A DNA stretch of 64,000 nt from Nocardia sp. BMG51109 (GTDB lineage Bacteria; Actinomycetota; Actinomycetes; Mycobacteriales; Mycobacteriaceae), in contig NZ_JAFQ01000004.1 in NCBI RefSeq assembly GCF_000526215.1, positions 1,178,001 through 1,242,000 on the forward strand, read 5' to 3'. The notes beneath the pieces are model-generated. The model saw only the letters and a program-made list of their open reading frames with translations. It did not search any database and was not told where the DNA came from. This document shows, piece after piece, positions 2,411 to 46,367 of this stretch. Made by a program: the position numbers and the translations under genes. How positions within the stretch are numbered: the first letter of the stretch is position 1; the number at the start of each line of letters is the position of its first letter.

Positions 2411-2480
2411 ACCTTCACTATCTGATCGGTTGTCGGTCCAGCGATTCCCGTCGGCGCCCCGTGCCGATACCCCTTCGGAG

Positions 2481-2498
2481 CGGGCGGCAACCCGCCCG
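2481..2498 (-). terminator. GC hairpin between NRPS-C and mycolyltransferase
   Basis: A perfect 7-bp inverted repeat (CGGGCGG / CCGCCCG) around a 4-nt loop sits in the 147-nt gap after the NRPS-C stop. There is no U-tract. It could be an actinobacterial-type terminator or attenuator, but nothing more than the stem supports this. Confidence 0.35.
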
Positions 2499-2556
2499 AC
2501 CCTACGGCCTTTGAAGTCGTCCGACCAGTGGAGATCGTTACGTGACGAGTGCCTCA

Positions 2557-5500
2557 TCACGCGCCGCCGCCGTCCTCGGTCACGGCGTCATCGCTGCTGG
2601 CGAGCTGTTTCGCCAGCCGAGGCCCGATCTCCGCCAGGGCCTCCGGGGCGACCATCTCCTCGTGCCAGGCGGCGACCGGATATTCGGCGACCTCCCCGTC
2701 GACGTAGGCGCACCACTTGCCGGCGGCGGTGTCGTGGTCGCGGGCCGAGAAGTAGTCGAGACGGCCGCGGAAGATCGCGGGGCGGTGGTCGGCGATCAGC
2801 TCCGCCGAGCGGACGGCGCTGCGGTAGATGCGGCGCACCCGGTCCGGGGTGAGCAGGGCGAGGTCCGGCGGGATGGTGGCGTGCAGGGTGGCCACCGCCT
2901 CGTCGCTCAGATCGTGCACGTCGGCCTGCTCATCGGGACTACCGACCAGGATCTCCGCGCCGATGCCGATCTCCGCCAGCGCCTCCCGGACGGCGGCGTG
3001 GAAGTCGGTGACGTCGATCTCGGTGTGGCTGTCGAGCAGCGCCAGCAGTCCCACGCGCGCGCCGTCGGATTGCAGCGCGGTGGCGACCGCGTGCGCCAGC
3101 ACGCCGCCCAGCGACCAGCCCAGCAGGTGATACGGGCCCTGCGGCTGCACCCGGCGGATCTCGGTGACGTAGCGGGCGGCCATGTCCCACAGCGATTCCG
3201 GCAGATAGCCGTCCTCCGACAGCGCAGGCGATTGCAGGCCGATGATCGGCCGGTCCTCGACGTAACGACCCAGTCCGGCGTAGCACCAGGACAATCCGTA
3301 CATCGGGTGGATGCAGAACAGCGGGGCGCCGGCACCGTCGGAGCGGATCGGCAGCAGCACGTCGAGCGCGGCGTCGGAACCGAGGTCGAAGTCGTACTCG
3401 CCGCCCTGCGCGCCCTCGATTCGTTGTGCCAGAGCCGAGACGGTGGAGCCGGTGAAGAACCACTGGACCCGGACCTGGGTGCCGGTCAGCTCGCGCAGGC
3501 GGCCGACCGCGCGGGTGGCGATCAGCGAATTGCCGCCGAGGTCGAAGAAATCGTCGTCGGCGCCGACCCGGTCGAGGCCGAGGATCTCGCCGAACACATC
3601 GGCGACCGCCTGCTCCAGCGCGGTCTCGGGGACGCGGTAGGGGCGCGCGGACATCCGCGGCTGCGGCAGCGCCTTGCGGTCCAGCTTGCCGCTGGCGTTC
3701 AGCGGCAGTTCGTCCAGCACCACCAGGGCGGCCGGAATCATGTAGCCGGGCAACGATTCCCGCGCGTAGGAGAACAGCGCGGACTCGTCCACACCCGCCG
3801 GACCCGCCGGGACGACGTGGGCGACCAGGCGGTCGCCCGGACCGCCGCGGGCCAGCGAGACCACGGCGTGCCGCACCGAGGGATGCGCCGCGAGCACCGA
3901 TTCGATCTCGCCGAGTTCGACGCGCTGGCCGCGCAGTTTCACCTGGAAGTCGCTGCGGCCCAGGTACTCCAGGGCACCGTCGCGCCAGCGGACGATATCG
4001 CCGGTGCGGTACAGGCGCCCGCCGCCGGCGTGCGCGACGAAGCGTTCGGCGGTCGGCCCGGGTGCGCCCAGGTAACCGCGAGCCAGCTGGACCCCGGCCA
4101 CATAGAGTTCGCCGGGCGATCCGGGCGGGACCGGGAGCAGCTGGCGATCGAGGACGTGCACGTGGGTGTTGGCGACCGGGGCGCCGATCGGAACCGCCGC
4201 GCCCGCAGCGTGGTTCGCCGGCTTCCTGGGCCCCGAGGGATCCGGCCACGCGGTGACGACGGTGGCCTCCGCGGGGCCGTACCAGTTCACCAGGTCGGCG
4301 TGCTCGAACAGTGCCGCGAACTCCGCCGCCGTCGCGCCGGACAGCGCCTCGCCCGCGGCGAACACCCGGCGCAGCGACGGACAGCCCTGCGACAGGCCGG
4401 GATTGGCGGTGGGATCGAGGAAGGCGTCCAGCATCGACGGGACGAAGTGCACGGTGCTGACCGACCGCTCCTCGATCACCCGCGACAGGTAGGCCGGGTC
4501 GCGGTGGCCGTCGGGTTCGGCGATCACCAGGGCGGCGCCGGTCTGCAACGGCCAGAACAGCTCCCAGGCGGAGATGTCGAAGGTGATCGGGGTCTTGTGC
4601 AGCACCACGTCGCCGGTGTCGTGCGGGTAGCCGCGCTGCGCCCAGCGGAGCTGGTTGGCCATCTGGCGATGGGTGATCGCCACGCCCTTGGGCCGGCCGG
4701 TGGAGCCGGAGGTGTGGATGACGTACGCGACGGTGTCCGGGTGCGGCTCCGGGAACGGTTGTGCCACAACATCGATCGGCAGATCCAGCGTGTCGACCGC
4801 GACCGGCGGTGTGCCGGTGCCGGTGTCGAAGCCGTCGGCGGTGGTGGTCAGCACGCACACCGGAGCGGTGTTGCCGAGCACGAACTCGTTGCGTTCGGCG
4901 GGATGGTCCGGATCCAGCGGGACGTAGCCGCCGCCGGCCCGCAGCACCGCGTAGATCGCGACGACCAGGTCGATCGAGCGCCGCATGGCCACGGCCACCA
5001 GCGATTCCGGTCGCACGCCGCGGGGTGCCAGCTCCCCCGCCAGCGCCCGGGAACGGGTATCCAGCTCGTGGTAGGTCAGCACGGTGTCGCCGAAATACAG
5101 CGCCGGGGCCTGCGGGGTGCGCGCCACCTGGGCGTCGAACAGCGACAGCAGCGTCGCGTCGTCGAGCAGGGCGGGCGCCGCGGTGGCGTTGCGGGCGGCC
5201 AGTTCGGCGCGCTCGCAGTCCAGCAGCGCGTCCACCTCGGCGATCCGCGCGTCCGGGGTGTCGACGAAGCGGCAGATGAGGCCCGAGAGCCGATGGGCCA
5301 GCGTCTCGGCGGCGGGCTCGTCGAAGACGTCGCGCAGGTACTTCAGCGAGACCCGCAGCTGATTGTCCAGCACCACCAGCACCGTCACCGGGTAGTGGGT
5401 GCCGTTGACCGAGCCGATGCCGGTGATCCGCATGCCGTCGATCGAGCCGACCCGGTCCAGGCCCTCGCGGTCGATCGGGAAGGACTCGAACACCACCAGC

Positions 5501-8500
5501 GAGTCGAAAAGCCCTTCCACGCCGGCGGTTTCCTGAATATCACTCAGGCCCAGGTAGTGGTGGTCGAGCAGGTCGGCCTGCTCGGCCTGCAACCGGCGCA
5601 GCAGGCCGGCGAGGGTTTCGGTGGCGGCCAGGCGCACCCGCACGGGGATGGCGTTGAGGAACAGGCCGACCATCGACTCCACGCCGGGCAGGGCCGGCGG
5701 GCGGCCGGACACGGTGGCGCCGAACAGCACGTCGTCGCGGTCGACGCTGCGGCCGATCAGCAGGCCCCAGGCCGCCTGCACCACGGTGTTGACCGTCACG
5801 CCCAGGCGCGCGGCCAACCGGGTCAGGCCGGTGGTGTCGGCGACCGACAGCTCGAAACCGACTTCGCCTACGCCGCAGGATATTTCGCGGCCCGGATCGA
5901 CCGGGGCCAGCGGCGTCGGTTCGGTGACGCCCGACAGCGCCCGCCGCCACGCGGCCCGTGCGGCCTCGGGATCCTGGGCGACCAGCCACGCCAGGTACTC
6001 GCCGTAGGAGCGGGCCTGTTCCGGCAGCCGCGAATGCGGGCCGAGCGCGTACCGGGTCAGCAGGTCCTGCATGAGCAGCGGCATCGACCAGCCGTCGACG
6101 AGGATGTGGTGGCTGGTCACCAGCAGCCGGTAGTCGTCGTCCAACTCGCCCGCCGCGGTGCGGATCAGGGTGAACCGCAGCAGCGGGGCGGCGCTCATAT
6201 CGAAGCGGTCGGCGTAGTCGCCGGCCGTGATCCGGGCCAGTTCCGCCTCGGCCGCCTCGGCGTCGAGGGTGCCGAGATCGACCGTGCGCCAGGGCACCTC
6301 GACCCGATCGAGCACCACCTGCACCGGGTTGCCCGCGGCGTCGGCGGCGAAGGCCACCCGCAGGTTGTCGTGCCGGTCCAGCACTGCCTGCGCGGCCTGC
6401 CGCAGCCGCCGCTCGTCCACGCTGCCGTGCAGGTCGAGGGTGAACTGGGTGGTGTAGACGTCGACGGAGGACTCGGCCAGCAGGGCATGGAACAGCATGC
6501 CCGACTGCAACGGCGTCACCGGCCAGGCGTCGGCCAGGCCCGGGTACGCGTCGTGGAGCCGGTCGATATCGTTCTGCGCCAGCCGAACCAGCGGGAAGTC
6601 GGACGGGGTGAACCCGCCCGCCCCCGCCCGGGTGCCGTGTTCGGCCAGTCCGCCCAGCGCCCGAACCCAGTGTCCGGCAAGCTCCTTCACCTGTTCGACG
6701 TCCAATACCGCGGCCGCGTAGTCGAATCGGGCCAGCAGGCCGTCGTCGGTGGCCTCGATGGTGACGTCCAGGAACAGGTCGGGCGACGCGATGTCGGGAA
6801 CCGGCCGGGCGGGGCGCAGGTCGCGGTAGCGGAATGCGGTGCGCCCGTGGGCGAGTGCGGCCAGCTCGTCGGAGGTGCCCGGGTTCAGGTAGCGCAGCAG
6901 GCCGTAACCGGCACCCCGGCCGGGCACGGTGCGGCGCTGCTCCTTGACCAGCGCGATCACCGCTCCGGCGGCGGGCCCGCCCAGCAGGGCGTCGTCCACG
7001 TCGATACCGTCGAGGCCCAGCACGAACGGGTAGGCGGCGGTGAATCCGCCCACGGCGCCGGCGGATTCGGGACCCGCCGCCGTGCGGCCGTCGGCGAACA
7101 GCCGCACGACCGGGCCGAGGAGGTCGCCCGCCGGGCCCCGCTGGGTCGCCTGCGGCAGCAGCGAGGTGCTGTCCGGGTCGATCACGGCGAAACCCGCCCG
7201 CTGCCGCCGGGCCGGCTCCAACGCCAGCGCGAGGGCGGCCAGCAGCACATCCTCGACCGCGGCGTGGTAGGCGGCGGCCACGGCATCGACCGCGGCGGCG
7301 CCCTCGGCGGTGATGCCCAGCGACACCCGGCCGCGGGAGCGGGTATCGAGGCCGTCGATCGGGAAATCCGCCGGAGCATCCCGCAATGCCCGTTTCCACC
7401 AGGCCATGTCGTCGACGGTCGACTGGTCGAGGGCGCGCTCGGACAGCGTGCGCGCCACACCGGCCGCGGCGTCGGGGGCCACCGGGTCGGCGGCACCGCC
7501 GGACCAGGCCGCCGCCAGCTCGTCGACGATGCCGCGCCAGGAGACGTCGTCGACGACCAGGCCGGTGGCGACCACCACGAGAGTCATCGGAACGCCCTGT
7601 GCGACAAACTCGTCGGTGCCGTCGGTATCCGCCGGCGCGATCAGGCCGAAGCAGATGTTGCGGCCGGACGCCGGGTCCAGGTCCGCGGCCAGGGTGCGCA
7701 CGGCGATCTCGGTGGTGTCCTCGGTGGGGATGAACCACCGCAGCGCCGCCCCCGGCACGGCGTCGGGAACGACCAGGTGGGCGCTCACCGGCCCGGTGTA
7801 TTCCGGAACCTCGTCGCGGCGGACGAAGCGGGCTCCGGCGTCGGACTCGGCGGTGACGACGGGCAGGAATTCGGTGACGGCCTCGGCCGAGGCGACCGGC
7901 AGGAGTTCGGTTCCGGCGTCGAATACCGCGTCGCCCGGCGGCACGGGCAGCAGCTCCGTGACATATTCCGACGCCTCGTCCGGGCTGGACGCCCCCGGGA
8001 TCCGGCTCGCGAGACCCGTTGCGACGGCCGGATATTCGCCCGTATCGGCCACGACCGAGGGCACTCCGACGCCGACCGGCGGGCCGAACGGTTTGCCCGC
8101 GGACGCGTCCGGATCGTCGGAAACGACCGTGCCGTCCGTGGTTTCGAGGCGCGCCGACAGCATCGGGTGCCGGTCCAGCAGCGCCTGCACGGCCGCGCCC
8201 ACCCGGTCGGTCTCGCAGTCGGCGGGGATGTCCAGGACGACGGCTCGCCGGTCGCGGCCGGCGGGGTCGGCCGACAGCAACCGCGCCGCCCCCGGCGGCA
8301 GCGGCACCGGTCCGGTCGACGGCTGCTCGGGCGGCCGCTCGGTGACGACCCGGGCCAGCGCCTCGACGGTGCGGCATTCGAAGACGTCGCGCGGCGTGCA
8401 GAGCACGCCGCGGGCGCGCAGCCGCGACACCACCTGGATGGACATGATGCTGTCGCCGCCGAGGGCGAAGAAGTCGTCGTCCAGGCCGACGTGGTCCCGG

Positions 8501-11500
8501 CCCAGGACCTCGCCGATGACCTCGGCGATCGCCTGTTCGGCCGGGGTCTGCGGGGCCCGGTATTCGACGGTGTCCAGGACCGGCGCCGGCAGCGCCGCGC
8601 GGTCGAGCTTGCCGACCGGGGTGAGCGGGATCTCGTCCAGCGCCACGAGGGCGGTGGGGACCATGTACTCCGGCAGCGTGCGCGCCAGCTCCGCCGTGAG
8701 CGTCGCGGTGTCGATCTCCGCGTCCTGTTCCGGAAGCACGTAGGACACCAGAATCGTTGCGCCGGTGCCAGTTTCCCGGCCGATCGTGGTCGCGAAGCGC
8801 ACCTCGGGACGGGCGGTGAGGACGCTGTCGATCTCGCCCGGCTCGATCCGGAAGCCGCGGATCTTCACCTGGAAGTCGTTGCGGCCCACATAGTCCACGA
8901 CGTGTTCCCCCCGCCGCCAGCGCACCACGTCGCCGGTGCGGTAGAGGCGCTGCCCCGGCCGGCCGTAGGGATCGGCGACGAACCGGGCCGCGGTCAGTCC
9001 CGGCCGGTCGTGGTAGCCGCGGGCGAGCTGAATGCCGCCCAGATACAGTTCGCCCGCAACGCCTTCGGGCACCGGGCGCAGCCGGGCGTCGAGCACCAGC
9101 GCCCGCATGCCGCGGATCGGCGCGCCGATGGTCACCGCGTCGCCGGCCGCCAGCGGATCGCTGATGGTGGTCATGATGGTGGTCTCGGTCGGGCCGTAGC
9201 CGTTGTGGAAACGGCGGCCCACACCGTCGTGCGATCCGCCCCAGGTCGCCACCATGTCGGCCGGGACCGCCTCGCCGCCGGCGACGATCGCCCGCATGCC
9301 GGTCACCGCGGCCGGATCGAGCGAGGCCAGCACCGACGGGGTCAGGAAGGCGTGGGTGACGCCCTCGCGCCGGATGAGATCGGCCAGCTCGTCGCCGCCG
9401 ACGGTGCCCGGCGGCGCCACCACGAGTGCCCCGCCCGCACCGAGGGCGAGCAGCGTCTCCAGCATCGACGCGTCGAACGACGGCGAGGCGAAGGCGAGCG
9501 CCCGCGACCACCGGTCGAGCCGATAACGCTCGGTCTGCTCGGCGGCGAAGTTGGCCAGCCCGGCGTGCGTGACGACGACGCCCTTGGGCAGGCCGGTGGA
9601 ACCGGAGGTGTAGATGACGTAGGCGGCCTGATCGGTCCGCAGGGCGCCGAGCCGTTCGTCGTCGGAAATCGGTGCGCCGGAACGGTTGTCCACCTCGACG
9701 GCGAATTCCGGTGTGTCCAGGACGAGCCAGTCCGTGTCCATATCGGGCAACCCGGCGGCCGCGGCGCGGACCGTGACGCCCAGGGCCGCACCCGAATCCG
9801 CCACCATGTGTGCGATGCGGTCGGCCGGGTAGCCGGGGTCGACGGGGACGAACGCGGCGCCGGTCTTGGCGACCGACCACACCGTGACCACCGCCTCGAC
9901 CGAACGCGGAATCGCCACGGCCACCAGGGTTTCCGGTCCGGCGCCCAGCTCGATCAGTCGGCGGGCCAGCTTCGACGAAGCGGTGTCGAGCTGCCGGTAG
10001 GTGAAGCTGCGGCCGTGGAAGACCACCGCCGAACCGTCGGGATTCGCGGCGACGGCGGCCGCCATCAGCTCCGGCAGCGTGCGCGGCGGCTCGGCCGGGC
10101 CGCCCGCGCGGCGTACCAGGCCGGCGTGCTCGGAGTCGTCGAGCAGCGCCAGGTCCCCGGCCGGGACCGTCGGGTCGGCGGCCGCGGCGGCCAGGATGCG
10201 GCGGAACCGGCGGCCGAAGTCCTCGACCGTCGCGGCGTCGAAAAGGTCGCGGGCATAGGTGAACTCGGCAGCCAGTCCGGCCTCGTCGCCGTCCTCGGTG
10301 CGCAGTTCGCGCACGGTCAGCAGCAGGTCGAACTTGGCGGTGCCGGCCGCCGGGTCGAGCGCGGTCAGGCTCAGGCCGGGCAGCTCGAAACCCGACGTGG
10401 TGAGGTTTTCGAACGACAGCGCCACCTGGAACAGCGGGTGCCGGGCCGCCGAACGCGCCGGATCCACGGCCTCGACCAGCCGCTCGAACGGGATGTCGGC
10501 GTGGGCGAAGGCGCGCAGGCCGGCCTCCCGGTTGGCGGCCAGCAGCTCGGCGAAGCGGCGGCCGGGTGCGACCCGGCTGCGCAGCACGAGCGTGTTGACG
10601 AACATGCCGATCAGATCGTCGAGTTCGCGCTCGCCGCGGCCGGCGATCGGGGTGCCGACGGCGATGTCCTCGGTGCCCGAGAGCCGGGCCAGGAACACCG
10701 TGAACGCGGTGTGCACGACCATGAACAGCGTCGCGTTGTGGGTGCGCGCGAGTTCGGTGAGTGCCGCGTGCACGTCGGCGTCGACGACGAACGCCGTCTT
10801 CCCGCCGGCGAAGGACTGGGCGGGGGGCCGGGGACGGTCGGCCGGGAGATTCAGCTCGTCCGGCAGGCCCGCGAGTTCCTTTGTCCAGTAACGGAGTTGG
10901 GCGCCGGCCACCGACTCCGGATCGTTCTCGTCGCCGAGCACGGTGTGCTGCCACAGCGCGAAGTCGGCGTACTGGATCGGCAGCGGTTCCCACGCCGGAT
11001 CCTGGTCGTCGGAGCGGGCGACGTAGGCGAGCATCAGGTCCCGGGTCAGCGGGCCCATCGACCAGCCGTCGGCGGCGATGTGGTGGGCGACGAAGACCAG
11101 CACGTATTCGGTGGCGGTGAGCTGGAACAGCCGGACCCGGAACGGGATCTCGGTGGTGACGTCGAATCCCGTCCCGACCAGCCGGGCGACCTCGTGCGCG
11201 ACGCGCTCCTCGCCGATCCGGACCGGCGTCGGATCCACCGGCACCTCGTCCGGCGCGAGGATCCGCTGCTCCGGGCCGTCCGGGGTCTGCGGGTAGATCG
11301 TGCGCAGGACCTCATGGCGCGCAATCAGATCCGTGATCGCCGCCCCCAGTGCGGGCACGTCCAGCGTGCCCGACAACCGGATCGCGGCCGGGATGTTGTA
11401 CACCGCCGCGGACGTATCGAACTGGTTGAGGAACCACATCCGCTGCTGGGCGAACGACAGCGGGAGCCGATCCGGGCGCGGCGCGGCGACCAGCGGCGTG

Positions 11501-17500: not shown

Positions 17501-19953
17501 GAACGCCAGTAGGCCAGCTGGGCCGACGCGATCGAATCCGGATCACCCTCGTCGCCCAGCACCGACCGCTGCCACAGCGTGTAATCCGCGTACTGCACCG
17601 GCAGCGGATGCCAGGCGGGAGAGGAACGATTGCGGCGAGCGAGGAAGGCCCCCAGCAGATCTCGCATGAACGGCGCGACCGACTCGCCGTCGGCGGCGAT
17701 GTGATGCGCCACGACGACGATCACGTGGTCGCCGGGGGCCAGCTCCGCCACGGCGATCCGCAGCGGGACCTCGGCGGCGACGTCGAAGCCGCGCAGCGCG
17801 AATCCGGCCAGCCAGTCCGCCATTCCGGACTCGGCGACCGGTTCCGGCGTCAGATCCGGAATCGCTTGTTCCACCGGCAGAATCACCTGATGGCCGGTGC
17901 CGTCGATATCCGGGTAGACCGTGCGCAGCGTCTCGTGCCGCTCGATCACATCGGCGACCGCGGCCTGTAGCGCGTCCGTATCGAGCCGGCCGGTGAGCCG
18001 GAGGGCGAACGGGACGTTGTCGGCCGGCGAGTCCGGATCGAACTGGTTGAGGAACCACATCCGCTGCTGCGCGGGAGACAACGGGATGCGGTCCGGCCTC
18101 GGCATCGGCCGCAGCGGTGGCCGCCCGCCGCCGCCCTTGATCGGTTCCAGGCGCTGCGCCAGCGCGGCGACCGTCGGCGCGTCGAACAGCAGCCGGGCCG
18201 GGACGCGGCCGGAGATCTGCGCGCCCAGCCGGGCGGCGACCCGGGTGGCGATCAGCGAGTTCCCGCCCAGATCGAAGAAGTCGTCATCGGCGCCGATCGG
18301 CGTTGCGGGACCGAGCAATTCGGCGAACACGCTCGCCACCAGCTCCTCCAGCGGGCCGGACGGCGGCCGGAACTCGCGGATCTGCAGCACCGGTGCGGGC
18401 AGTGCGGCGCGGTCGAGCTTGCCGACCGGGGTCAGCGGGATCTCGTCGAGGACCGTGATACTGGTGGGCACCATATGCGGCGGGAGGCTCCGCCCGGCGG
18501 CTGCGAGCAGCGTATCGACATCGACGGCGGCGCCCGGTGCGGGATGGACATAGGCCGCCAGGATCGTGGCGCCGCCGTCGAGCCGGTGGCCGATCGTGAC
18601 CGCGAAATCGACCGCCTCGTGCGCCGCCAGCACCGCATCGATCTCACCCAGCTCGATCCGGAAACCACGAATCTTCACCTGAAAATCGTTGCGGCCCAGA
18701 TACTCCAGGCCACCGCCGGCCGTCCGGCGCACCAGATCACCGGTACGGTACAGCCGGGATACGCCGGCGCCGAACGGATTCGCCAGGAAGCGCGCCGCCG
18801 TCAGACCGGGCCGCCGATGGTAGCCGCGGGCCACCTGCGCACCGGCAATGTACAACTCACCGGCCACACCGTCGGGAACCGGCGCGAGGCGCTCGTCCAG
18901 TACGAACTCCTCGATGCCGCGAATCGGCCCGCCGATGGTCACCGTCTCCCCCGGAACCAACGGCGCACTGATATTCGTCATGATCGTCGTCTCGGTCGGA
19001 CCATACCCGTCGAAGAACTCCCGAACACCCGACCCGACCGGAACCACCCACCGCCGCACCAACTCCGGCGGACACGCCTCACCACCGGCCACCACCACCC
19101 GCAGATCATCCAAACCCACCGGATCCACCGACGCCAGCGCCGCCGGCGTGATGAACGCGTGCGTCACCTCTTCGCGCGCCATCAAGGCCGCGAGTTCGTC
19201 ACCGCCGTACACCGAGGGCGCAACCACCACCATCGTCGCGGCGCCGCCCACGGCCAGCAGCAACTCCAGCACCGACGCGTCGAACGACGGCGACGCGAAA
19301 TGCAGTGTGCGCGAATCGCCCCCGACCCGGTACCGCTCACGCTGCTCGTCACAGAAACCCGACAACCCCGCCTGCGTGACGACGACGCCCTTCGGTCTGC
19401 CGGTCGACCCGGACGTGTAGATCACATACGCCGGATGCTCGGAACGCAAGGGGCGCAAGCGATCCGCGTACGTCACCGGTTCCGCCGAATACCGTCCCAA
19501 CTCCTCGGTGAACTCCGGCGCGTCGACGACCAGCCACTCCACCCCGCCGGGCAGTCCGTCCAGCACCGAGGACACCGTAAGCCCCAGCACCACACCAGAA
19601 TCCCCCACCATATGCGCCACCCGCTCCGCCGGATAACCAGGATCCACCGGAACAAAACCCGCACCCGACTTCGCCACACCCCACACCGCAACAACCGAAT
19701 CCACCGACCGCGGCACCCCCACCGCCACCAAATCCTCCGGCCCCACCCCACGCTCGATCAACAACCGCGCCAACCGCGACGAACGCTCATCCAACTCCGC
19801 ATACGACAACTCCGCCAACGTCGCGGTGGCATCGGCGAAGACGACGGCGGTGGCGGTCGGATCGACCTCTACGGCGGTCGCCAGCAGCTGCGGCAACGTC
19901 GCGACGCGTGCTCTACGGGTCCGTACCGGGCGCACTCGGGCCGAGCGGGTCAT
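2557..19953 (-). CDS. NRPS-C: five-module nonribosomal peptide synthetase with TE
   Basis: A 5,798-residue synthetase read as A1-T1-C2-A2-T2-C3-A3-T3-C4-A4-T4-E*-C5-A5-T5-TE. Carrier serines are at about 566, 1629, 2773, 3835 (GGDS, the form found before epimerization domains) and 5476. C2, C4 and C5 have intact HHxxxDG; C3 reads HHIAADA (Ala1829 for Gly). The E domain (about 3880-4465) is degenerate. TE is about 5530-5798, nucleophile Ser5614 in GWSLGG. Codes aligned by eye to GrsA positions: A1 DALFVGGIMK, A2 DVWDFILVSK, A3 DLWHLILVSK, A4 DALFIGGIMK, A5 DIWHFAWVVK; I recognise none with confidence, though A1 and A4 look hydrophobic. A3 has a Pro/Ala-rich insertion of about 65 residues near 2275-2342. 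The start is ATG with AGGAAG 10 nt upstream. There is no N-terminal C domain, so it needs an upstream C domain in trans (probably NRPS-A) or initiates itself. Confidence 0.95.
6560..8316 (-). other. Degenerate epimerization domain inside NRPS-C
   Basis: This part of NRPS-C (about residues 3880-4465) follows a GGDS carrier domain. It keeps E-domain landmarks: a WF motif (RWFIP), the VDDVSWR segment, and VKEQRRTVP followed by GAGYGLLRY. The catalytic HHxxxDG is replaced, with Thr4130-Gly4131 in place of His-His. The usual VGWFT box reads VGGFT. About 110 residues of low-complexity, acidic, repeat-like sequence (TELLPV / TEFLPV) are inserted near 3950-4065. By family knowledge the second His is the catalytic base, so the domain is predicted to be inactive and residue 4 to stay L. 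Confidence 0.8.
16932..17160 (-). repeat. Shared near-identical tract 4 (NRPS-C copy)
   Basis: 229 bp in the C2 domain of NRPS-C, matching 29581-29809 in NRPS-B with about three mismatches by eye. Leu codons here are mostly TTG and several codons end in T (AAT, GAT), unlike the flanking C-ending usage. It is consistent with recent gene conversion between the paralogous modules. Confidence 0.85.
18599..18718 (-). repeat. Shared identical tract 3 (NRPS-C copy)
   Basis: 120 bp in the C-terminal part of A1 (motif A8 region, [16 protein letters not shown]), identical by eye to 31266-31385 in NRPS-B while both flanks diverge. Confidence 0.85.
18931..19168 (-). repeat. Shared near-identical tract 2 (NRPS-C copy)
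   Basis: 238 bp in the A1 core around motif A5 ([12 protein letters not shown]), matching 31598-31835 in NRPS-B with three mismatches by eye. It covers much of the substrate pocket, so the two A1 domains should choose the same amino acid. Confidence 0.87.
19563..19824 (-). repeat. Shared identical tract 1 (NRPS-C copy)
   Basis: 262 bp in the N-terminal part of A1, identical by eye to 32227-32488 in NRPS-B. Codons in the tract end mainly in G or T (GTG, GGT, GAT, TTT, CCT, TCT), whereas the flanking coding sequence prefers C endings, so it looks imported from another source before or during conversion. Confidence 0.9.
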
Positions 19954-19969
19954 ACCGTAGCCGCTTCCT

Positions 19970-19988
19970 GGGCGGATTTCTGCCGCCC
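19970..19988 (-). promoter_or_regulatory. Hairpin abutting the NRPS-C ribosome binding site
   Basis: An inverted repeat (GGGCGG / CCGCCC, 6-bp stem, 7-nt loop) ends directly beside the AGGAAG Shine-Dalgarno at 19964-19969. The 241-nt B-C gap also holds a possible 40-codon upstream reading frame, from the ATG at 20035 to a TAG at 19913, which overlaps the NRPS-C start out of frame. Either could tune translation. No convincing sigma-A promoter was seen in the gap. Confidence 0.3.
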
Positions 19989-20194
19989 GACCACCCGAAA
20001 CACGTGTACCTCACCTTGCCTGTTGTGTCGCTCATGCGCCTGCGCGGCGCCACCCCCTTCATCCATCCGAGCGCGGCCGGGGCATGTTACGCGCGGCGCG
20101 GCGATTCCGGCTCGGTAGGGGCGGGCCGGACCGGAACCAGACCATTGTCGGGCACCGAGGCCGACCGGTCACCCGGTGGGGCGACGGTTCCGCG

Positions 20195-32613
<12,419 letters not shown>

Positions 32614-32617
<4 letters not shown>

Positions 32618-32688
32618 GCGGGCACCCGGCCCCGAATCCGGGAGCCGCCGCTGCGCTCGCCCCGCCGACCAGCAACTCTGCCGAACAT
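32614..32688 (-). CDS. Possible 24-aa leader peptide coupled to NRPS-B
   Basis: A short reading frame starts at ATG 32688 with GGAGAAGG about 5 nt upstream, the best Shine-Dalgarno in the A-B gap. It encodes a 24-residue, very basic peptide (starts [16 protein letters not shown], ends GRVPA). Its TGA stop overlaps the proposed GTG start of NRPS-B as GTGA. NRPS-B has only a weak ribosome binding site of its own, so translational coupling through this peptide would explain how its start is found. No homologue is recognised. It may be no more than a translated leader. Confidence 0.4.
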
Positions 32689-32811
32689 CAAAACCTTCTC
32701 CGTACCCACGCCGAACCTCACCGATAATGCCTTGTCCGCGCCTATACCGCATCTGTGCTGGTAGCGCACGCCCCCGAGGTCAGGGGCACAAACTGTCAAA
32801 GCCGTACGCTA

Positions 32812-33624
32812 TCACCGGGACAGCAACTCGCCGGCAGCGACGACCACGTCGGCCGTGCCGAAGCCGGCCGGTGCCGGCCCGTCCTCGACCACCACGGCCC
32901 GCAGATCCTCCAGCGGCTCCGCGTCGAGCCCGTCGAGCACCACCGCGTCGGCGAACAGATGGGTAACCCATTCGTCGGCGAGCGCCTCGCTCGTGACCTC
33001 GCCGGGCAGCACCAGGGACGCACCGGCCGCACCGGCCGCCACCACCTCCAGCAGCGCCGTGGGAGAATCCGCGCGGCCGTGCCGGAAGATCCGGGACTCG
33101 AAGTTCAGCTCCGTGCGCGCCCGCAACAGCTCGACCGCCGAGGCCAGGTCGTCGTAGCTCAGGGTGGCACCGGCCGCGACGAATGCGGGATCCGCACCGC
33201 GCAACGGCCGCGTCCGGTTCGCATAGGTCACCGGCCGCGCCGACTCCCCCGCGATCTCGCCGATCACCGCCGGATCGTCGAGCACCAGCCAGTCGACGCC
33301 GCCGGCGGGCGCCGGCCCGGCCGTCAGCCCGGCCTTGATCTCCGGTGTCTGGGGAAGTTCCGAGCCGTCGCCGGCGGGAACCACCGCGGCCCCGGCCTTC
33401 AGCACCGCCCAGGCCGCCACGGTCGCCTCGATGCCCCGATCCAACCGGACCGCCACGCCCGTTCCCGGCCCGCAGCCGCGTCCGATCAGCACCCGCGCCA
33501 GCCGCGAGGACCGGGCGCCGAGCTCCTGATACGACACCGCCTCCTCACCGAATGCCAGTGCGGGACCGTCGGGATCGTCCTCCACCGAGGCGGCCAGCGC
33601 CTGCGTCAGCGCCGTGCCGTGCGC
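32812..33624 (-). other. Truncated, degenerate adenylation domain at NRPS-A C-terminus
   Basis: About 270 residues retain the start of an A domain (SYQELGARSSRLARVLIGRG, then AWAVLKAGAAVVP). Where the ATP-binding [10 protein letters not shown] should be, the sequence reads ADPAFVAAGATLSYDD, and it stops before the A5 motif. It cannot activate an amino acid. The remaining half-domain may act as an interface holding the downstream A-T of NRPS-B or NRPS-C against C3. The frame is intact and the protein ends in a normal TGA, so it does not look like a fresh truncation. Confidence 0.8.
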
Positions 33625-36600
33625 CGCGACCGGTTCGACCGGTGCGGCGCGCTGCAGCTCGGCCCGCGCCCGCTCCTCGGCGTCCAGCAGATCGATATCG
33701 CCGACCAGCACCTGCGGATCGTCGGCCACGGCGGCCAGGACACGCTCGAACCGGCGGCCCAGCGCCTGCACCGTCGACTCGTCGAAAAGATCGGCGGCAT
33801 AGGTGATCACGGCGGCCAGATCGCCCGCCGAGCCCGCCGCGTCGTACCGGGGCTCCACGATCACCTGCAGATCGAATTTCGCCACCACCAGATCGGTGTC
33901 CAGCGCCTCGACCGTCAGGCCCGGCAGCTCCAGCGTCGGCCGCTCGGTGTTCTGGAACGACAGCATCACCTGGAACAGATCCTGCGCGCCCGAACGGTTC
34001 GGCGACACCACCTCGGCCACCCGCTCGAACGGGATGTCGGAGTTGGCGAATGCGGAAAGGTCTGCCTCCCTGGCCTTTTCGACCAGCGCGTCGAAGGTGT
34101 CGGCGGTGCTCACCCCGGTGCGCAGCGTGAGCGTGTTGACGAACATGCCGACCAGGTCGTCGAGCGCGCGCTCGCCGCGGCCCGCGATCGGCGTGCCGAC
34201 GGTGATGTCGGCGTTGCCCGTCTGCCGGGCCAGCAGCGCCGCCAGCGCCGCGTGCACGACCATGAACATCGACGAATTATGCTCGCGCGCAATGCGAAGC
34301 AGACCCTCGTGCACGGTCGCGGGCAGCTGGAAGCCGACCGCGCCGCCGCGCATCGACGGCACCGCCGGGCGCGGACGGTCCGGCGGCACCAGCGCGGCGC
34401 CGGTGACGCCGGCGAGCTGGGTGCGCCAGTAGTTCAGCTGCCGGGCCGCGATCGAATCCTCTTGATCGTCCGTACCGATCGCCTCGCGCTGCCACACCGC
34501 GAAGTCGGCGTACTGCACATCCAGTGGCGCCCAACCGGGTTCGCGGCCCTCGACGCGGGCCAGGTAGGCGGTCATCACGTCGCGGGCCAGCGGCGCCAGC
34601 GACGCGCCGTCGCCGGCGATGTGGTGCAGCACCAGCGCCAGCAGGTGGTCGTCGCCGTTGTTCAGCAGCAGCCCGCGCACCGGAACCTGGCGCGTCACAT
34701 CGAATCCGGCGGACATCAGCTCGGTGACCCGGCGCACCGGATCGCTGCCGGCCGCCACCGGCAGCCCGTCCGGCAGCACCTCGCCGACCGGCAGGATCTC
34801 CTGATACGGCAGCCCGCCGGGGCCGCCCGCCGGATAGCGGGTGCGCAGCACCTCGTGCCGCTCCAGTACATCGGTGACCGCCTCGCCCAGGGCCCGCACA
34901 TCCAGCTCGCCGGTCAGGCGGACCGCCAGCGGAATGTTGTAGGACGGCGATTCCGGATCCAACTGGTTGATGACCCACATCCGCTGCTGCGCAAGGGAAA
35001 GCGGGAGACGGCCGGTGCGCGGCGCCGGCACCAGCCGCGGCCGGACCGCGGCGCCGGGGACGATCCGCGCCGCCAGGGCGGCCACGGTCGGCGCCTCGAA
35101 CACCTCGCGCACGGCGACGTTAGAGTCCAGCGCCTCGTTGATCCGCGCCACCGCGCGGGTGGCGAGCAGCGAGTTGCCGCCGAGCGCGAAGAAGTCGTCG
35201 TCGGCGCCCACCACGCGCTTGCCGTCCGCCCCGGCCGCGAGCAGTCCGCCGAACACGTCGGCCACCGCCTGCTCGATCGGGTTGCCCGGCGGCCGGAACG
35301 CGGCCGAGCCGAGGAACTCCGGTGCGGGCAGCGCCTTGCGGTCGAGCTTGCCGTTCGGCGTGAGCGGGAATGCGTCCAGCACCACGATGGCGTCGGGAAC
35401 CATGTAGCCGGTGAGGAATTCGCCGACCCGCGACCGCAGCGCGATCGGGTCCAGGCCGGCATCGGTCTCCGGGCTCACGTAGCCCACCAGGCGGTCGCCG
35501 GTCTGCTCGTCGGAGCGCACCACCACGACGGCCTGGCCGACCCCGCCGCAGCGCAGCAGCGCCGCCTCCACCTCGCCGAGTTCGATGCGGAAGCCGCGCA
35601 GCTGCACCTGCTGGTCGCTGCGCCCGGCATATTCGAGATTCGCCTCGCCGCCGAAGCCGGCCCATCGGCCGACGTCGCCGGTGCGGTACATCCGGGATCC
35701 GGGCGGGCCGAACGGATTCGCCACGAGCCGCGCGGCGGTGAGGCCGGGGCGGCCCAGGTAGCCGCGGGACAGCTGCTCGCCGGAGATGTGCAGCTCACCC
35801 GCCACCCCGACCGGCGCCGGATGCAACCGGTCGTCGAGGACGTAGGAACTCAGGCCGGGCAGCGCGCGGCCGATGACGCTGGCCGGATTGTCGGCCAGCC
35901 GCTCGTCCACGGCCAGGAACGACACGTGCACGGTCGTTTCGGTGATGCCGTACATGTTCACCAACTGCGGTGCGGCGGAGCCGTTTCCGCCGTGCCGCTC
36001 GTACCAGCGCTGCAACTGGCGCAGATCCAGCGCCTCGCCGCCGAAGACGATGTAGCGCAGCGCGAACTTGCCCTCGCCACCGGCGCTGTAGGCCGCGCGA
36101 TCGGCCTCGGCCAGCTGGTAGAACGCCGACGGGGTCTGGTTCAGCACGGTGACCTGCTCGCGAATCAGCAACTCGCGGAACAGCTCCGGCGACCGGGACG
36201 TCAGATAGTCGACCACCACGACCGCGCCGCCGTTGGCCAGCGCGCACCACAGCTCCCACACCGAGAAGTCGAAGGCGAACGAGTGGAACAGCGTCCACAC
36301 GTCGGTCTCGTCGAACTCGAATCGCAGCTGGGTGTTGGCGAACAGCTCCAGCACGTTGCGGTGCGAGACGCCGACGCCCTTCGGCACGCCGGTGGAGCCG
36401 GAAGTGTAGATGACGTAGGCCAGATTGTGCGGCCGCAGCGGCGCGACCCGATCGGCGTCGGTGACCGGCGTATCCGGATAGTCGTCGGCCTCCTCCAGCA
36501 GCAGGACGGGAAGGTCGCTGCCGGGCAGCGCCGCCCGCTCCTCGGCGGTGGTCAGGATGCAGGCCGGGGCGGCGTCGGAGAGCATGAACTCCAGCCGCTG

Positions 36601-39600
36601 CGCCGGATAGGCGGTGTCGATCGGGAGGTAGCCGGCGCCGGCGATCAGCACGCCCAGCAGCGCCACCGGCAGCTCCTCGTTCCGCGGAACCGCCACCGCC
36701 ACCAGCGATTCCGGGCCGACGCCGCGGTCGGTCAGGGCGCGCGCGACGCGGTTGGCCCGCCGCTGCAGTTCGCCGAACGACAGCATCGCATCGTCGTAGC
36801 GGATCGCGGTCGCGCCCGGGCGCCGCTGCGCCTGCGTGTCGATCAGATCCACCAGTGTCACCGGGGGAACCTGGGCACCGGCCGAATTCCATTCGCGCAG
36901 TACCAGTTCGCGCTCACCGCGCGCCAGCACGTCGATATCGCCCACGACCGCACCGGAATCGGCGGCCACCGCGGCCAGAACGCGGCGGAACCGATCGATG
37001 AAATCCTGCACGGTGGCTTCGTCGAACAGATCGGTGGCGTAGGTGAACGCCGCCGACATGCCCTGGGACACACCGCGTTCGTCGACGGTTTCCGCCATCC
37101 CGAGCTGGAGGTCGAACTTGGCCAGCGGTACCTCGAGATCCACCCCGGACACCGCCAGGCCGGGCAGCTCCAGATGCGTCTGCGCCAGGTTCTGGAAGGT
37201 GAGCATCACCTGGAACAGTGGATGCCTGGCCGCCGACCGCACCGGGTCCAGCAGCTCGACCAGCCGCTCGAACGGCACGTCGGCGTGCCCGAAGGCCGCC
37301 ACGTCGGTGCCGCGGACCTCGCGCAGCAGTTCGTCGAACGACGCGGCCGGGTCGATCTCGGTGCGCAGCACCAGCGTATTGACGAACATGCCGATCAGAT
37401 CGTCGAGTTCGGCCTCGCCGCGGCCCGCGATCGGGGTGCCGATCGCGATGTCGCGGGTGCCCGACAGCCGGGCCAGCAGCACCGCGAGCGCCGCGTGCAC
37501 GACCATGAACAGCGTCGCACCGTGTTCGTGCGCCAGCCGGTTCAGCGCGGCGTGCACCTCGGCGTCGATCTCGAAGCCGATGGTCGCGCCGTGATAGGTG
37601 GCCGCGGCGGGGCGCGGGCGGTCGGCCGGCAGCTCCAATTGTTCGGGCAGCGCGGCCAACTGGTGCTGCCAGTAGTCGATCTGCTGCGCCAGTACCGAAT
37701 CCGGGTCGTCCTCGGTGCCCAGCGTCTCGCGCTGCCAGAGCGCGAAATCGGCGTACTGCACCGCGAGCGGCGTCCATTCCGGCGGCCCGCCCTGCACCCG
37801 ACCCAGGTACGCGGTCATCAGGTCGCGGGTCAGCGGGGCCATCGAGAAGCCGTCGCCGGCGATGTGGTGCACGACGCACACCAGCACGTGCTCGGCGTCG
37901 GCCAGTCGCAGCACACGCAGCCGCACGGGCGGTGCGGTCGTCACGTCGAACCCGCCCGTCACGGCCTCGGCGACGAGCGCGGGCACCTCGGACTCCGCGG
38001 CGTCGACCACCGAAAGCTCCGGCGCCGCACGGGGATCGGAGACCGGCAGCACCAGCTGATAGCCCTCGCCGTCCACCTCCGGATAGAGGGTGCGCAGCAC
38101 CTCGTGCCGCTCCACCAGATCGCCCACCGCGGCCCGCAGCGCGTCCGGATCCAGCGCTCCACTCAGCCGCACCGCGCCCGGAATATTGTTGACCGCGCTG
38201 TCCGGGTCGAAGCGGTTGAGGAACCACATCCGCTGCTGCGCATACGACAGCGGGATCCGCTCCGGCCGCGGCATCGGCCGCAGCTGCCGCCCGGCCGCCG
38301 AACCGGCGTGCCGTTCCACGCGTTCGGCCAGCGCGGCCACCGTGGACGCCTCGAACAGCAGCTGCACCGGCACCCGCACCGACAGCGCCGACCCGATCCG
38401 GGCGGCGGCCTGCGCGGCCAGCAGCGAGTTGCCGCCGAGTTCGAAGAAGTCATCATCGGCGCCCACCCGGCCGGCGGCGGTGGTCACCGGTTCGCCGTCC
38501 GGCTCGGCCGGCTCCTGCGGGCCCGCCGGAACCAGCAGCGCCGCGAACACGTCGGCGACGATCTCCTCCACCGGCGTCGACGGCGCCCGGAATTCCCGTG
38601 CGGTGAAGGCGGGTTCGGGCAGCCGGGCGCGATCCAGCTTGCCGATCGGCGTCAGCGGGATCTCGTCCAGCACCATGATCAGGGCCGGAATCATGTACGC
38701 GGGCAGCGTCTTCGAGAGATGATCGAAGAGTTCTGCAGTATCCGATGCCGCGCCCGCGCGGGTGTCCACGGTGGTTCCGGCCCGCGGCAGCACATACGTC
38801 ACCAGATTCATGGCGCCCGAGGGCAGGCGGCGGCCGATGGTGGCCGCGAAGTCGACATCCGGATGTTCGGTCAGCGCGTTGTCGATCTCACCGAGTTCGA
38901 TGCGGAAACCGCGCACCTTCACCTGGAAGTCCGAGCGGCCCAGGAACTCGATGCCGCCGTCGGATTCGTTGCGCCGCACCAGATCCCCGGTGCGGTACAG
39001 CCGAGCGCCCGGATTGCCGGTCTCCGCGCCGAACGGGCTCGCCACGAACCGGCCGGCCGTCAGGCCCGGCCGTCCCAGGTAACCCTGCGCGAGCACCGGT
39101 CCGGACAGATACAGCTCGCCCACCACCCCGGCCGGAACCGGCCGCAACCGCGAATCCAGCACGAACACACCGACTCCCGGGACCGCGGAGCCGATCGTGA
39201 TCGGCTCGCCCGGCGTCAGCGCGGTGGACGTCACCAGGATCGTGGCCTCGGTCGGGCCGTAACCGTTGACGAACGACCGGCCGTCCCTGGCCCACCGGCC
39301 CACCAGTTCCGGGCCGAACCGGTCGCCGATCACCATCACGGTCTCGATGTCGTCGAGCCCCGCGGGATCCACCGACTCCAGCGCGCCCGGCGTGATCAGC
39401 ATGTGCGTGGCCCGCTCGCGGCGCAGCAGATCCGCCAGTTCGTACCCGCCGAACACGTCCGGCGGCGACACCACCAGCGTCGCGCCCGAGGAGAACGCGA
39501 GCATCAGTTCCAGCACGGAGACGTCGAAATTCGGCGAGCACACGTGCATCACGCGCGAATCCTCGCTCACGCCATAGTGTTCGCGCTCGGCGGCCACCAG

Positions 39601-40206
39601 CGCGCCGAGGCCGACGTGGGTGACGACGACGCCCTTGGGCCGCCCCGTCGAACCCGAGGTGTAGATGACGTAGGCCGGATGCTGCTCGGTGAGCGGGCGG
39701 ACACGGTCGGTGTAGGAGATCGGATGCGACGGCCGCGCCGCCACCCGCTCCCGCACCACCGGATCGTCCAGCTCCAGCCAGTACACCCCGGTGCCCAGCG
39801 CCGAGCGATGCTCCGCGGTGGTCAGGCCCAGCACCGCACCGGAATCCGCCACCATGTGGTCGATGCGCTCGGCCGGATAGCCCGGATCCACCGGCACATA
39901 CGCCGCGCCCGTCTTGGCGATGGCCCACACCGCCAGCACCGACTCGATCGAGCGGGCGATGCCGATGGCGACCACGTCGCCGGCGCCGATACCGCGATCG
40001 ATGAGCTCCCGGGCCAGCCGGGACGAGGATTCGTCGAGTTCCCGATAGGTCAGCTCACGCGCGTCGGCCGGATCGTCGGTCGGGGCGGACCGGATGGCGA
40101 CCGAATCGGCCGCGGACTCGACCGCGGCGGTGAGCAGCTGTCCGAAGAGCGGGCCACCCGACCGGCGACGACGACCTCCGCGGGCGGAACGGCGGGCAGT
40201 TTCCAT
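32812..40206 (-). CDS. NRPS-A: two-module synthetase ending in C and a degenerate A domain
   Basis: About 2,464 residues, read as A1-T1-C2-A2-T2-C3-A*. Carrier serines are at about 594 and 1679. C2 (HHIAGDG, about 780) and C3 (HHIAGDG, about 1861) look active. A1 code by eye is DVLLMIGILK (unassigned); A2 is DFWNVGMVHK, one conservative change from the threonine code. The last 270 residues (about 2195-2464) are the N-terminal part of an adenylation domain that lacks the TSGSTGxPKG loop, motif A5 and everything beyond, with no carrier domain and no TE. C3 must therefore use an acceptor carrier on another protein; NRPS-B and NRPS-C both begin with A-T and lack a C domain, so they fit. I chose ATG 40206 (Arg-rich METARRSARGGRRRR) because GAGAGGTGA lies about 10 nt upstream; the frame stays open to 40284. 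No MbtH-like protein is encoded nearby. Confidence 0.94.
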   Translation of the reverse strand: METARRSARGGRRRRSGGPLFGQLLTAAVESAADSVAIRSAPTDDPADARELTYRELDESSSRLARELIDRGIGAGDVVAIGIARSIESVLAVWAIAKTGAAYVPVDPGYPAERIDHMVADSGAVLGLTTAEHRSALGTGVYWLELDDPVVRERVAARPSHPISYTDRVRPLTEQHPAYVIYTSGSTGRPKGVVVTHVGLGALVAAEREHYGVSEDSRVMHVCSPNFDVSVLELMLAFSSGATLVVSPPDVFGGYELADLLRRERATHMLITPGALESVDPAGLDDIETVMVIGDRFGPELVGRWARDGRSFVNGYGPTEATILVTSTALTPGEPITIGSAVPGVGVFVLDSRLRPVPAGVVGELYLSGPVLAQGYLGRPGLTAGRFVASPFGAETGNPGARLYRTGDLVRRNESDGGIEFLGRSDFQVKVRGFRIELGEIDNALTEHPDVDFAATIGRRLPSGAMNLVTYVLPRAGTTVDTRAGAASDTAELFDHLSKTLPAYMIPALIMVLDEIPLTPIGKLDRARLPEPAFTAREFRAPSTPVEEIVADVFAALLVPAGPQEPAEPDGEPVTTAAGRVGADDDFFELGGNSLLAAQAAARIGSALSVRVPVQLLFEASTVAALAERVERHAGSAAGRQLRPMPRPERIPLSYAQQRMWFLNRFDPDSAVNNIPGAVRLSGALDPDALRAAVGDLVERHEVLRTLYPEVDGEGYQLVLPVSDPRAAPELSVVDAAESEVPALVAEAVTGGFDVTTAPPVRLRVLRLADAEHVLVCVVHHIAGDGFSMAPLTRDLMTAYLGRVQGGPPEWTPLAVQYADFALWQRETLGTEDDPDSVLAQQIDYWQHQLAALPEQLELPADRPRPAAATYHGATIGFEIDAEVHAALNRLAHEHGATLFMVVHAALAVLLARLSGTRDIAIGTPIAGRGEAELDDLIGMFVNTLVLRTEIDPAASFDELLREVRGTDVAAFGHADVPFERLVELLDPVRSAARHPLFQVMLTFQNLAQTHLELPGLAVSGVDLEVPLAKFDLQLGMAETVDERGVSQGMSAAFTYATDLFDEATVQDFIDRFRRVLAAVAADSGAVVGDIDVLARGERELVLREWNSAGAQVPPVTLVDLIDTQAQRRPGATAIRYDDAMLSFGELQRRANRVARALTDRGVGPESLVAVAVPRNEELPVALLGVLIAGAGYLPIDTAYPAQRLEFMLSDAAPACILTTAEERAALPGSDLPVLLLEEADDYPDTPVTDADRVAPLRPHNLAYVIYTSGSTGVPKGVGVSHRNVLELFANTQLRFEFDETDVWTLFHSFAFDFSVWELWCALANGGAVVVVDYLTSRSPELFRELLIREQVTVLNQTPSAFYQLAEADRAAYSAGGEGKFALRYIVFGGEALDLRQLQRWYERHGGNGSAAPQLVNMYGITETTVHVSFLAVDERLADNPASVIGRALPGLSSYVLDDRLHPAPVGVAGELHISGEQLSRGYLGRPGLTAARLVANPFGPPGSRMYRTGDVGRWAGFGGEANLEYAGRSDQQVQLRGFRIELGEVEAALLRCGGVGQAVVVVRSDEQTGDRLVGYVSPETDAGLDPIALRSRVGEFLTGYMVPDAIVVLDAFPLTPNGKLDRKALPAPEFLGSAAFRPPGNPIEQAVADVFGGLLAAGADGKRVVGADDDFFALGGNSLLATRAVARINEALDSNVAVREVFEAPTVAALAARIVPGAAVRPRLVPAPRTGRLPLSLAQQRMWVINQLDPESPSYNIPLAVRLTGELDVRALGEAVTDVLERHEVLRTRYPAGGPGGLPYQEILPVGEVLPDGLPVAAGSDPVRRVTELMSAGFDVTRQVPVRGLLLNNGDDHLLALVLHHIAGDGASLAPLARDVMTAYLARVEGREPGWAPLDVQYADFAVWQREAIGTDDQEDSIAARQLNYWRTQLAGVTGAALVPPDRPRPAVPSMRGGAVGFQLPATVHEGLLRIAREHNSSMFMVVHAALAALLARQTGNADITVGTPIAGRGERALDDLVGMFVNTLTLRTGVSTADTFDALVEKAREADLSAFANSDIPFERVAEVVSPNRSGAQDLFQVMLSFQNTERPTLELPGLTVEALDTDLVVAKFDLQVIVEPRYDAAGSAGDLAAVITYAADLFDESTVQALGRRFERVLAAVADDPQVLVGDIDLLDAEERARAELQRAAPVEPVAAHGTALTQALAASVEDDPDGPALAFGEEAVSYQELGARSSRLARVLIGRGCGPGTGVAVRLDRGIEATVAAWAVLKAGAAVVPAGDGSELPQTPEIKAGLTAGPAPAGGVDWLVLDDPAVIGEIAGESARPVTYANRTRPLRGADPAFVAAGATLSYDDLASAVELLRARTELNFESRIFRHGRADSPTALLEVVAAGAAGASLVLPGEVTSEALADEWVTHLFADAVVLDGLDAEPLEDLRAVVVEDGPAPAGFGTADVVVAAGELLSR

Positions 40207-42372: not shown

Positions 42373-42560
42373 GGCTCGTCCTAGCGTCGATCAACATCGG
42401 TGGCATCCCGATCCGAAACCTCGATTTCGGTAACGATTCGGCATACGCTGTGACGGAAACTGTACTCCGCCGTGACCTTTTCGCAACCTTCCGAGGGAAA
42501 TGCCCAGCTGAAGCGAGTACCGCGGTCCTGATCTACCGTTACCTGAGCCAGACTGGAGGT

Positions 42561-46220: not shown

Positions 46221-46367
46221 GCACCAACCCCTTTGTAGCACAGCATCTCTCGCGTCACACGCACGCGAACGACGCCCGTGCCGGACCTCCTCGTCCACCT
46301 GCCTGTGGCATGTGCTCCCAGGTTAACTCGCCGGGCCGAGTCCCTGCCGACCGATCTCGATCGACGG

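Follow-up and report, generated by a model that had tools for sequence, protein, structure and literature searches.

A candidate forked NRPS assembly line in Nocardia sp. BMG51109, with one donor, two alternative receivers and a truncated A domain at the end of the donor

We analysed a 64-kb stretch (the window) of the 8.8-Mb genome of Nocardia sp. BMG51109, in which the ORF listing places three NRPS genes on the minus strand in the transcription order NRPS-A, NRPS-B and NRPS-C. Judging from sequence comparison, the best reading of this locus among those that we weighed is a forked assembly line, in which NRPS-A probably hands X-Thr to either NRPS-B or NRPS-C. NRPS-A would start with a residue X and then add Thr, and its last C domain would join X-Thr to the residue that the bound receiver has loaded on its first module. 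With NRPS-B as the receiver, the TE of NRPS-B would release X-Thr-a-b-c-Thr (six residues), and with NRPS-C, the TE of NRPS-C would release X-Thr-a-b-c-a-e (seven residues). Both hand-overs would happen in the cell, and X, a, b, c and e stand for predicted residues.

Motif and profile parsing (Table 1) gave 11 modules and two TEs for the whole locus, with four modules and a TE in NRPS-B and five modules, an E-like domain and a TE in NRPS-C. As stated in the preliminary description of this DNA, NRPS-B and NRPS-C both lack an N-terminal C domain, open with nearly the same A-T unit (80.9% identical) and have their own TEs, the GWSLGG motif being retained in both. No starter C domain was seen in NRPS-A by domain parsing, and of the three proteins it alone has a free terminal C domain. 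This C domain had been described as active-looking and as the end of the protein: it does keep HHxxxDG, but NRPS-A ends in a truncated A domain of about 285 residues beyond it, which we call dA. NRPS-A starts at the ATG at 40206, in a frame that extends to a TTG at 40284; the frame of NRPS-B is open from 32752, and its true start is probably the GTG at 32617, given the comparison with relatives. The E-like domain of NRPS-C is probably inactive. The loss of its HH motif recurs in other C-type lines in which the motif was located, and aurea and arizonensis (relatives are named here by species epithet or genome handle) retain AHHYAIDGVSW.

Table 1. Features of the locus, with positions in the 64-kb window
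Feature	Position	Strand	Basis
NRPS-A, donor, A(X)-T-C-A(Thr)-T-C-dA	32812..40206	-	ORFs, motif/profile parsing; ATG of conserved METARRSARG lead
Starter-type (S) N-terminal lead of NRPS-A	40114..40206	-	Lead comparison; profile A4 match E 6.8e-31
Last C domain of NRPS-A, HHxxxDG retained	33715..35019	-	Profile and motif
dA, truncated A domain closing the NRPS-A C-terminus, without A3 loop	32815..33669	-	Pfam, own profile, dN/dS, conservation, predicted fold, genus search
NRPS-B, receiver, A(a)-T-C-A(b)-T-C-A(c)-T-C-A(Thr)-T-TE	20195..32617	-	ORFs, motif/profile parsing, codes
Receiver-type (R) N-terminal lead of NRPS-B	32540..32617	-	Lead comparison; profile A3 match E 1.4e-26
TE of NRPS-B (GWSLGG)	20213..20986	-	Profile and motif
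NRPS-C, receiver, A(a)-T-C-A(b)-T-C-A(c)-T-C-A(a)-T-(E-like)-C-A(e)-T-TE	2557..19953	-	ORFs, motif/profile parsing, codes
Receiver-type (R) N-terminal lead of NRPS-C	19882..19953	-	Lead comparison; profile A3 match E 2.0e-26
E-like domain of NRPS-C, HH motif lost	6574..8313	-	Profile and motif
TE of NRPS-C (GWSLGG)	2563..3393	-	Profile and motif
PF00756 esterase gene, 4-base overlap with the NRPS-C end	1328..2560	-	ORFs, Pfam
M23 metallopeptidase, neighbour type of GCF 6	41506..42372	-	Pfam; description in PMC7413640
Nitronate monooxygenase family gene (GCF 6 'nitropropane dioxygenase')	42450..43613	+	Pfam; description in PMC7413640
Two acyl-CoA ligase genes upstream of NRPS-A	44604-46298, 46945-48591	-	
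Transposase or integrase pieces	54786-57218	-	

A-domain codes were read at positions that we placed from the PheA motifs and take to be the right ones, and the Thr assignment is likewise our assumption. Module 2 of NRPS-A then has a Thr-type code, and the a, b and c codes are identical in NRPS-B and NRPS-C. The pattern X-Thr (NRPS-A), a-b-c-Thr (NRPS-B) and a-b-c-a-e (NRPS-C) is that of seven one-donor clusters (the window, transvalensis BJ06-0148, two cyriacigeorgica strains, vulneris, suismassiliense and colli), with small code changes in the B line of suismassiliense and colli. In mexicana, the C line has one module fewer; the donors of lijiangensis and harenae are X-Ser, and that of shimofusensis has a different code.

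The A-first subunits of this family have two types of N-terminus, starter (S) or receiver (R). The starter lead of NRPS-A and its relatives reads METARRSARG..RRRRSG.PLFGQLLTAAVES, and the receiver lead of NRPS-B and NRPS-C reads MTRPARVRPTRTRRPRVTTLPQL, so that NRPS-C carries the R lead as NRPS-B does and not the S lead of NRPS-A. Leads were classed in 26 genomes, i.e. our own and 25 others chosen for holding an NRPS-A relative (G009, with its cluster at a contig edge, was excluded, and locus L018 is not included), using S and R patterns that were written after viewing the sequences. All 33 dA donors of this set were S-type (one frame each of harenae and thailandica, cut by the end of the stretch, was excluded from this count), and all 31 classed subunits immediately behind a dA donor were R-type, the broken subunit behind the donor of altamirensis being left unclassed. 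TE lines behind another TE line were R-type in 12 cases and S-type in two, and two TE lines with nothing ahead of them in the stretch were S-type. At further loci, some of which are strains of the same species, and with patterns widened after the 26-genome count, 19 of 21 subunits directly behind a donor were R-type; the two outside the pattern come from other genera (Antrihabitans and Aldersonia) and look alike though unclassed. Both leads are basic, with a charge of +6.8 for the starter versus +8.3 for the receiver lead. The TLPxL..AV..NPDG part of the receiver lead also precedes an internal a-type A domain of NRPS-C and therefore marks the type of A domain as much as it marks the lead.

Relatives of NRPS-A were found at no fewer than 77 loci, 74 of them named Nocardia among the matches listed. 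Donors and receivers were counted in the 25 near-complete genomes (five contigs at most, our own included) among the 118 genomes of the genus, with cut-offs set by eye (E <= 1e-100 for a dA donor and E <= 1e-17 for a receiver lead). One dA donor stands before two or three receiver lines of its cluster in 15 of these 25 genomes, and in 12 of the 15 it is the only dA donor genome-wide, giant-type dA (see below) aside; G037, G049 and G088 have a second one at another locus. Four genomes have two donors and two receivers (one of them, G115, at two loci), two have two donors and three receivers, and two have one of each. G098 has two donors and a single R lead in a short frame of 675 aa, and G138 has no donor, its lead match lying only inside its starter-type line. 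We also read 20 receiver leads base by base (18 from non-adjacent lines, an isolated lead of G136 and one of G080), and all begin 6-53 residues after an in-frame stop. Ahead of the 18 non-adjacent R lines, the gene end has a TE match in 17 cases; in the remaining one, of G037, it matched the E profile alone. The isolated lead (G136:C1:558485-558640, L226) opens a 2970-aa frame with no strong dA donor in its vicinity and no recognisable NRPS frame just ahead of it.

Two-donor clusters, with one donor ahead of each TE line, are present in six of the 26 genomes; in five of the six, the donor ahead of the C-type line is of X-Thr type. Five other genomes of the 26 have a single donor with a single C-type line, a layout that also agrees with the fork. 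In four of these species, the first donor (X-b type) comes before a two-module TE line and the second (X-Thr type) before a C-type line. In thailandica, a B-like line and a C-like line (the latter cut by the end of the stretch) each have an X-Thr donor before them; australiensis has no clear C-type line. Since dedicated X-Thr donors stand before C-type lines elsewhere, the X-Thr-a-b-c-a-e peptide predicted by the fork would be close to the product of a dedicated donor. Of the two-donor species, five have second donors that group in a separate clade when dA tails are placed in a quick tree, and their C-line receivers group likewise, which fits a pairing of donors with receivers but also plain descent. 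Fusions were seen as well: in four of the nine starter-type TE lines examined (lijiangensis, shimofusensis, G138 and G110), the sequence past the second C domain reads as the end of a donor C domain joined directly to a receiver-like A domain, and dA is missing. The other five have no clear donor-receiver junction; the 5141- and 5144-aa lines are somewhat alike, and those of aurea, arizonensis and harenae are not. Altogether, the leads, the two-donor clusters, the fusions and the donor:receiver counts support by sequence comparison what the preliminary description had proposed, namely that NRPS-A feeds NRPS-B or NRPS-C, giving a hexapeptide or a heptapeptide.

The dA tail (residues 2206-2490 of NRPS-A) matches our own A profile with 92.9 bits over model positions 6-292 of 394, and Pfam PF00501 with an E value of 3.3e-16 over positions 3-79 of 384. 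It is the first part of an A domain, with neither the A3 loop (TSGSTGxPKG) nor the C-terminal half of a functional one, and is by these motifs catalytically dead. A profile built from 38 tails has a match in 118 of 118 genomes of the genus at E <= 1e-55, a threshold that intact A domains can also reach (the first A domain of NRPS-C in the window scores 210 bits on this profile); the best match per genome was 4.6e-76 or better in all of them and below 1e-90 in 107. In the family, 47 of 81 genomes (31 genera) have matches at E <= 1e-50, and with a cut-off placed by eye at about 225 bits, six genera other than Nocardia have matches, two of these being assigned by score only. C-dA is the ending at all 12 loci that were fetched from that family search (eight are from four other genera), and at 10 of them an A-first frame follows immediately on the same strand. 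Among the loci retrieved as NRPS-A relatives, 58 subunits end in C-dA, with tails of 283-349 aa, and three end in a C domain without dA. That NRPS-A simply ends after its C domain is ruled out by dA, and a sequencing break as the origin of dA is ruled out because the same tail is found in many genomes with such a narrow range of lengths.

A dA tail is not always beside a receiver, as shown by a giant NRPS of the same genome (G000:C4, ~3076000-3130000; loci L011, L012 and L171), a single 17680-aa frame that ends in C-dA and after which no NRPS gene was found by Pfam on eight ORFs in the ~17 kb read. Giant-type dA (E 1e-80 to 5e-67) is additionally present in 24 of the 25 near-complete genomes, and other genomes of the genus likewise have very long frames with dA-like tails at their ends. 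An 11103-aa NRPS frame of the same genome was considered as a second such case and set aside, its end being a different kind of sequence. At G000:C4 4217080-4219974 (L002), an NRPS frame ends in a C domain plus about 540 residues unlike dA, before an A-first subunit.

The locus apparently belongs to a cluster family that has been described twice, as matched by descriptions and not by accessions. Komaki et al. (2014, PMC4035055) described it as cluster #4, for Ser/Thr-rich peptides, and noted its two TEs; in N. brasiliensis, they assigned six residues to the first two genes and five to the third, and offered either an 11-residue peptide or two separate peptides. Maennle et al. (2020, PMC7413640) described GCF 6, in which a large NRPS conserved in Nocardia, with 7 to 13 modules, is regarded as a single assembly line and has fixed neighbours (nitropropane dioxygenase, metallopeptidase, esterase, epimerase and enoyl-CoA dehydratase). 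With its 11 modules and two TEs, the window agrees with these descriptions, and the first three of these neighbours are present in it; scanning a portion of the window ORFs revealed no epimerase and no enoyl-CoA dehydratase. The passages on cluster #4 mention neither a shared donor nor a truncated A domain, and those on GCF 6 name neither a fork nor dA. AMP-binding frames similar to the acyl-CoA ligases of the window sit upstream in many relatives.

Of the two readings offered in PMC4035055, the first, one linear A-B-C line making an 11-residue peptide, fits the order of the genes on one strand, and PMC7413640 speaks of one enzyme complex. What stands between the last T of NRPS-B and the first A of NRPS-C is however a TE and no C domain, so that a C domain acting in trans would be needed; simple collinearity, already dismissed in the preliminary description, is for this reason extremely improbable. 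The second, in which NRPS-A and NRPS-B make a hexapeptide while NRPS-C starts on its own and makes a pentapeptide, is in our judgement unlikely. NRPS-C does open with an A-T unit that could in principle start a chain, and it sits behind the TE of NRPS-B, not directly behind NRPS-A, but its receiver lead and the X-Thr-type donors ahead of C-type lines in two-donor clusters argue against this. Moreover, among 11 genomes with weaker dA matches, several of these assemblies being broken at the cluster, we saw no intact C line of receiver type that lacked a donor, and three of the 11 (G138, G110 and G109) have their C-like line in starter form with no other close NRPS-A N-terminus. We had considered the 11 as donor-less genomes and abandoned this, as G028, G061, G104, G038 and G078 hold N-terminal parts of NRPS-A, apparently at contig edges; G140 has a damaged-looking donor, and G030 and G117 have no close C-type TE. 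The first modules of L204, L206, L207 and the panacis C line (L151-L153) have lost A3, T or C motifs with the frame still open, and those of the altamirensis C line have lost motifs too. Given the N-terminal parts just mentioned, the decay in L204, L206 and L207 is no evidence of donor loss. Such decayed lines, together with the five of 26 genomes that have one donor and one C-type line, would suit yet another reading, that only the hand-over from NRPS-A to NRPS-C works today and NRPS-B is idle or rarely used. We hold this to be quite improbable, considering that NRPS-B keeps the A3, T and C1 motifs of its first module as well as its TE motif, that it is the first gene behind the donor and that the first receiver is full-length in all one-donor, two-line clusters read except that of altamirensis.

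A rival of a different kind concerns dA and is compatible with the fork: the tail may be a functionless leftover, the junction being made by the C domain and the leads alone. This we find unlikely. The missing A3 loop and second half would agree with it, as would the giant NRPS, which has a C-dA end too and behind which the 20-kb stretches read in six genomes showed no further NRPS gene, and omega (dN/dS) of dA was the highest of five domains in six of 11 pairs. Its values nevertheless stay at 0.07-0.39 (catalytic A and C domains in these proteins, 0.01-0.35), showing that dA is under purifying selection. Against a leftover also stand the kept length of the tail, with few C-ended subunits lacking it, 75 positions that are at least 90% conserved across 32 tails, and the succession of C-dA and an A-first gene in other genera. 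The predicted fold is confident as well: the AlphaFold model of C-dA has a mean pLDDT of 89.8, and dA can be read as two alpha/beta subdomains. The relative orientation of C and dA in this model is unsure (pTM 0.62), and compared with C-A structures, the rmsd is ~20-24 A for both domains and ~3.5-4 A for C alone.

Docking elements of the COM, PAX and SLiM types link a carrier (or E) domain on one side to a C domain on the other. Compared with these known types (COM, PAX and SLiM/beta-hairpin; PMC9113145), the cut described here falls between C and A. We infer that dA and the basic receiver lead would form this junction, with dA docking the receivers. It is possible, if somewhat short of probable, that a C-dA end and a basic lead on an A-first receiver make up a new class of NRPS junction, in which the split between C and A lets one donor serve several receivers and clusters gain or lose products via receiver subunits. 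The genus would then be a natural series of forks (1:1, 1:2, 1:3 and 2:2) and fusions. Our searches of open-licence papers found no description of a truncated A domain at the C-terminus acting as a junction of bacterial NRPSs. Truncated A domains are kept in the fungal siderophore NRPSs SidD and Nps6 (PMC10192304), which are like dA in retaining a catalytically dead A domain; these lack the N-terminal ~290 residues and lie inside a module, whereas dA keeps the N-terminal part, lacks the rest and ends the protein.

Several points weigh against the fork. Pair-specific divergence of dA was not found when two donors of one genome were compared with one-donor orthologues: the ratio of dA divergence to that of A1, C1 and A2 was 1.0-1.26 versus a mean of 1.79, and relative to A1 and C1 alone it was 1.07-1.70 versus 1.72. 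The tail is no more diverged between donors of the same genome, giving no sign of pair-specific tuning. Modules 1-3 are homogenised, NRPS-B and NRPS-C within a genome being about as alike as NRPS-B between genomes, a likeness that gene conversion alone could explain. The basic charge of S leads, TLPxL before an internal A domain, the decayed C-line modules, the second donors elsewhere in G037, G049 and G088, the donor-less lead of G136, the case of G098, the giant NRPS with its C-dA end and no neighbouring receiver, and the five starter-type lines without a clear donor-receiver junction are to be counted on the same side.

Two-way branching had been called rarely documented in the preliminary description, a statement that has to be softened. 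A direct precedent is the bifurcated wollamide/desotamide NRPS of Streptomyces sp. MST-110588 (Booth et al., 2022, PMC9205934), in which shared upstream subunits work with either of two duplicated final subunits to give two product families. By gene content, the Nocardia locus likewise holds one upstream and two alternative downstream subunits, and the latter have matching ends at the junction, with a shared R lead and the near-identical A-T unit. In the Streptomyces system, both forks add the last two residues, the interface was modelled on a PaxB-type docking pair and the products are known; in the Nocardia one, with its predicted products, the forks are unequal (four and five modules), the split is between C and A, and there is a dA tail. 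In rhabdopeptide synthetases, one SLiM/beta-hairpin docking element can serve several partners (Hacker et al., 2018, reviewed in PMC9113145), with other docking elements than here and iterative use of modules. Since branching as such has a precedent, what is new here is the C-dA|A junction, the S and R leads and the genus-wide clusters of one donor with several, sometimes three, receivers.

If the fork is true, a large share of Nocardia species would make at least two related peptides per cluster by sharing the first enzyme, and what has been published on this cluster family (one line, or A+B and C alone) would need revision. The split between C and A with a folded dA tail would also be an added junction type for joining NRPS parts, for which the many natural donor-receiver pairs and fusions would serve as models. 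An orphan cluster family found widely across the genus also gains a prediction that can be tested.
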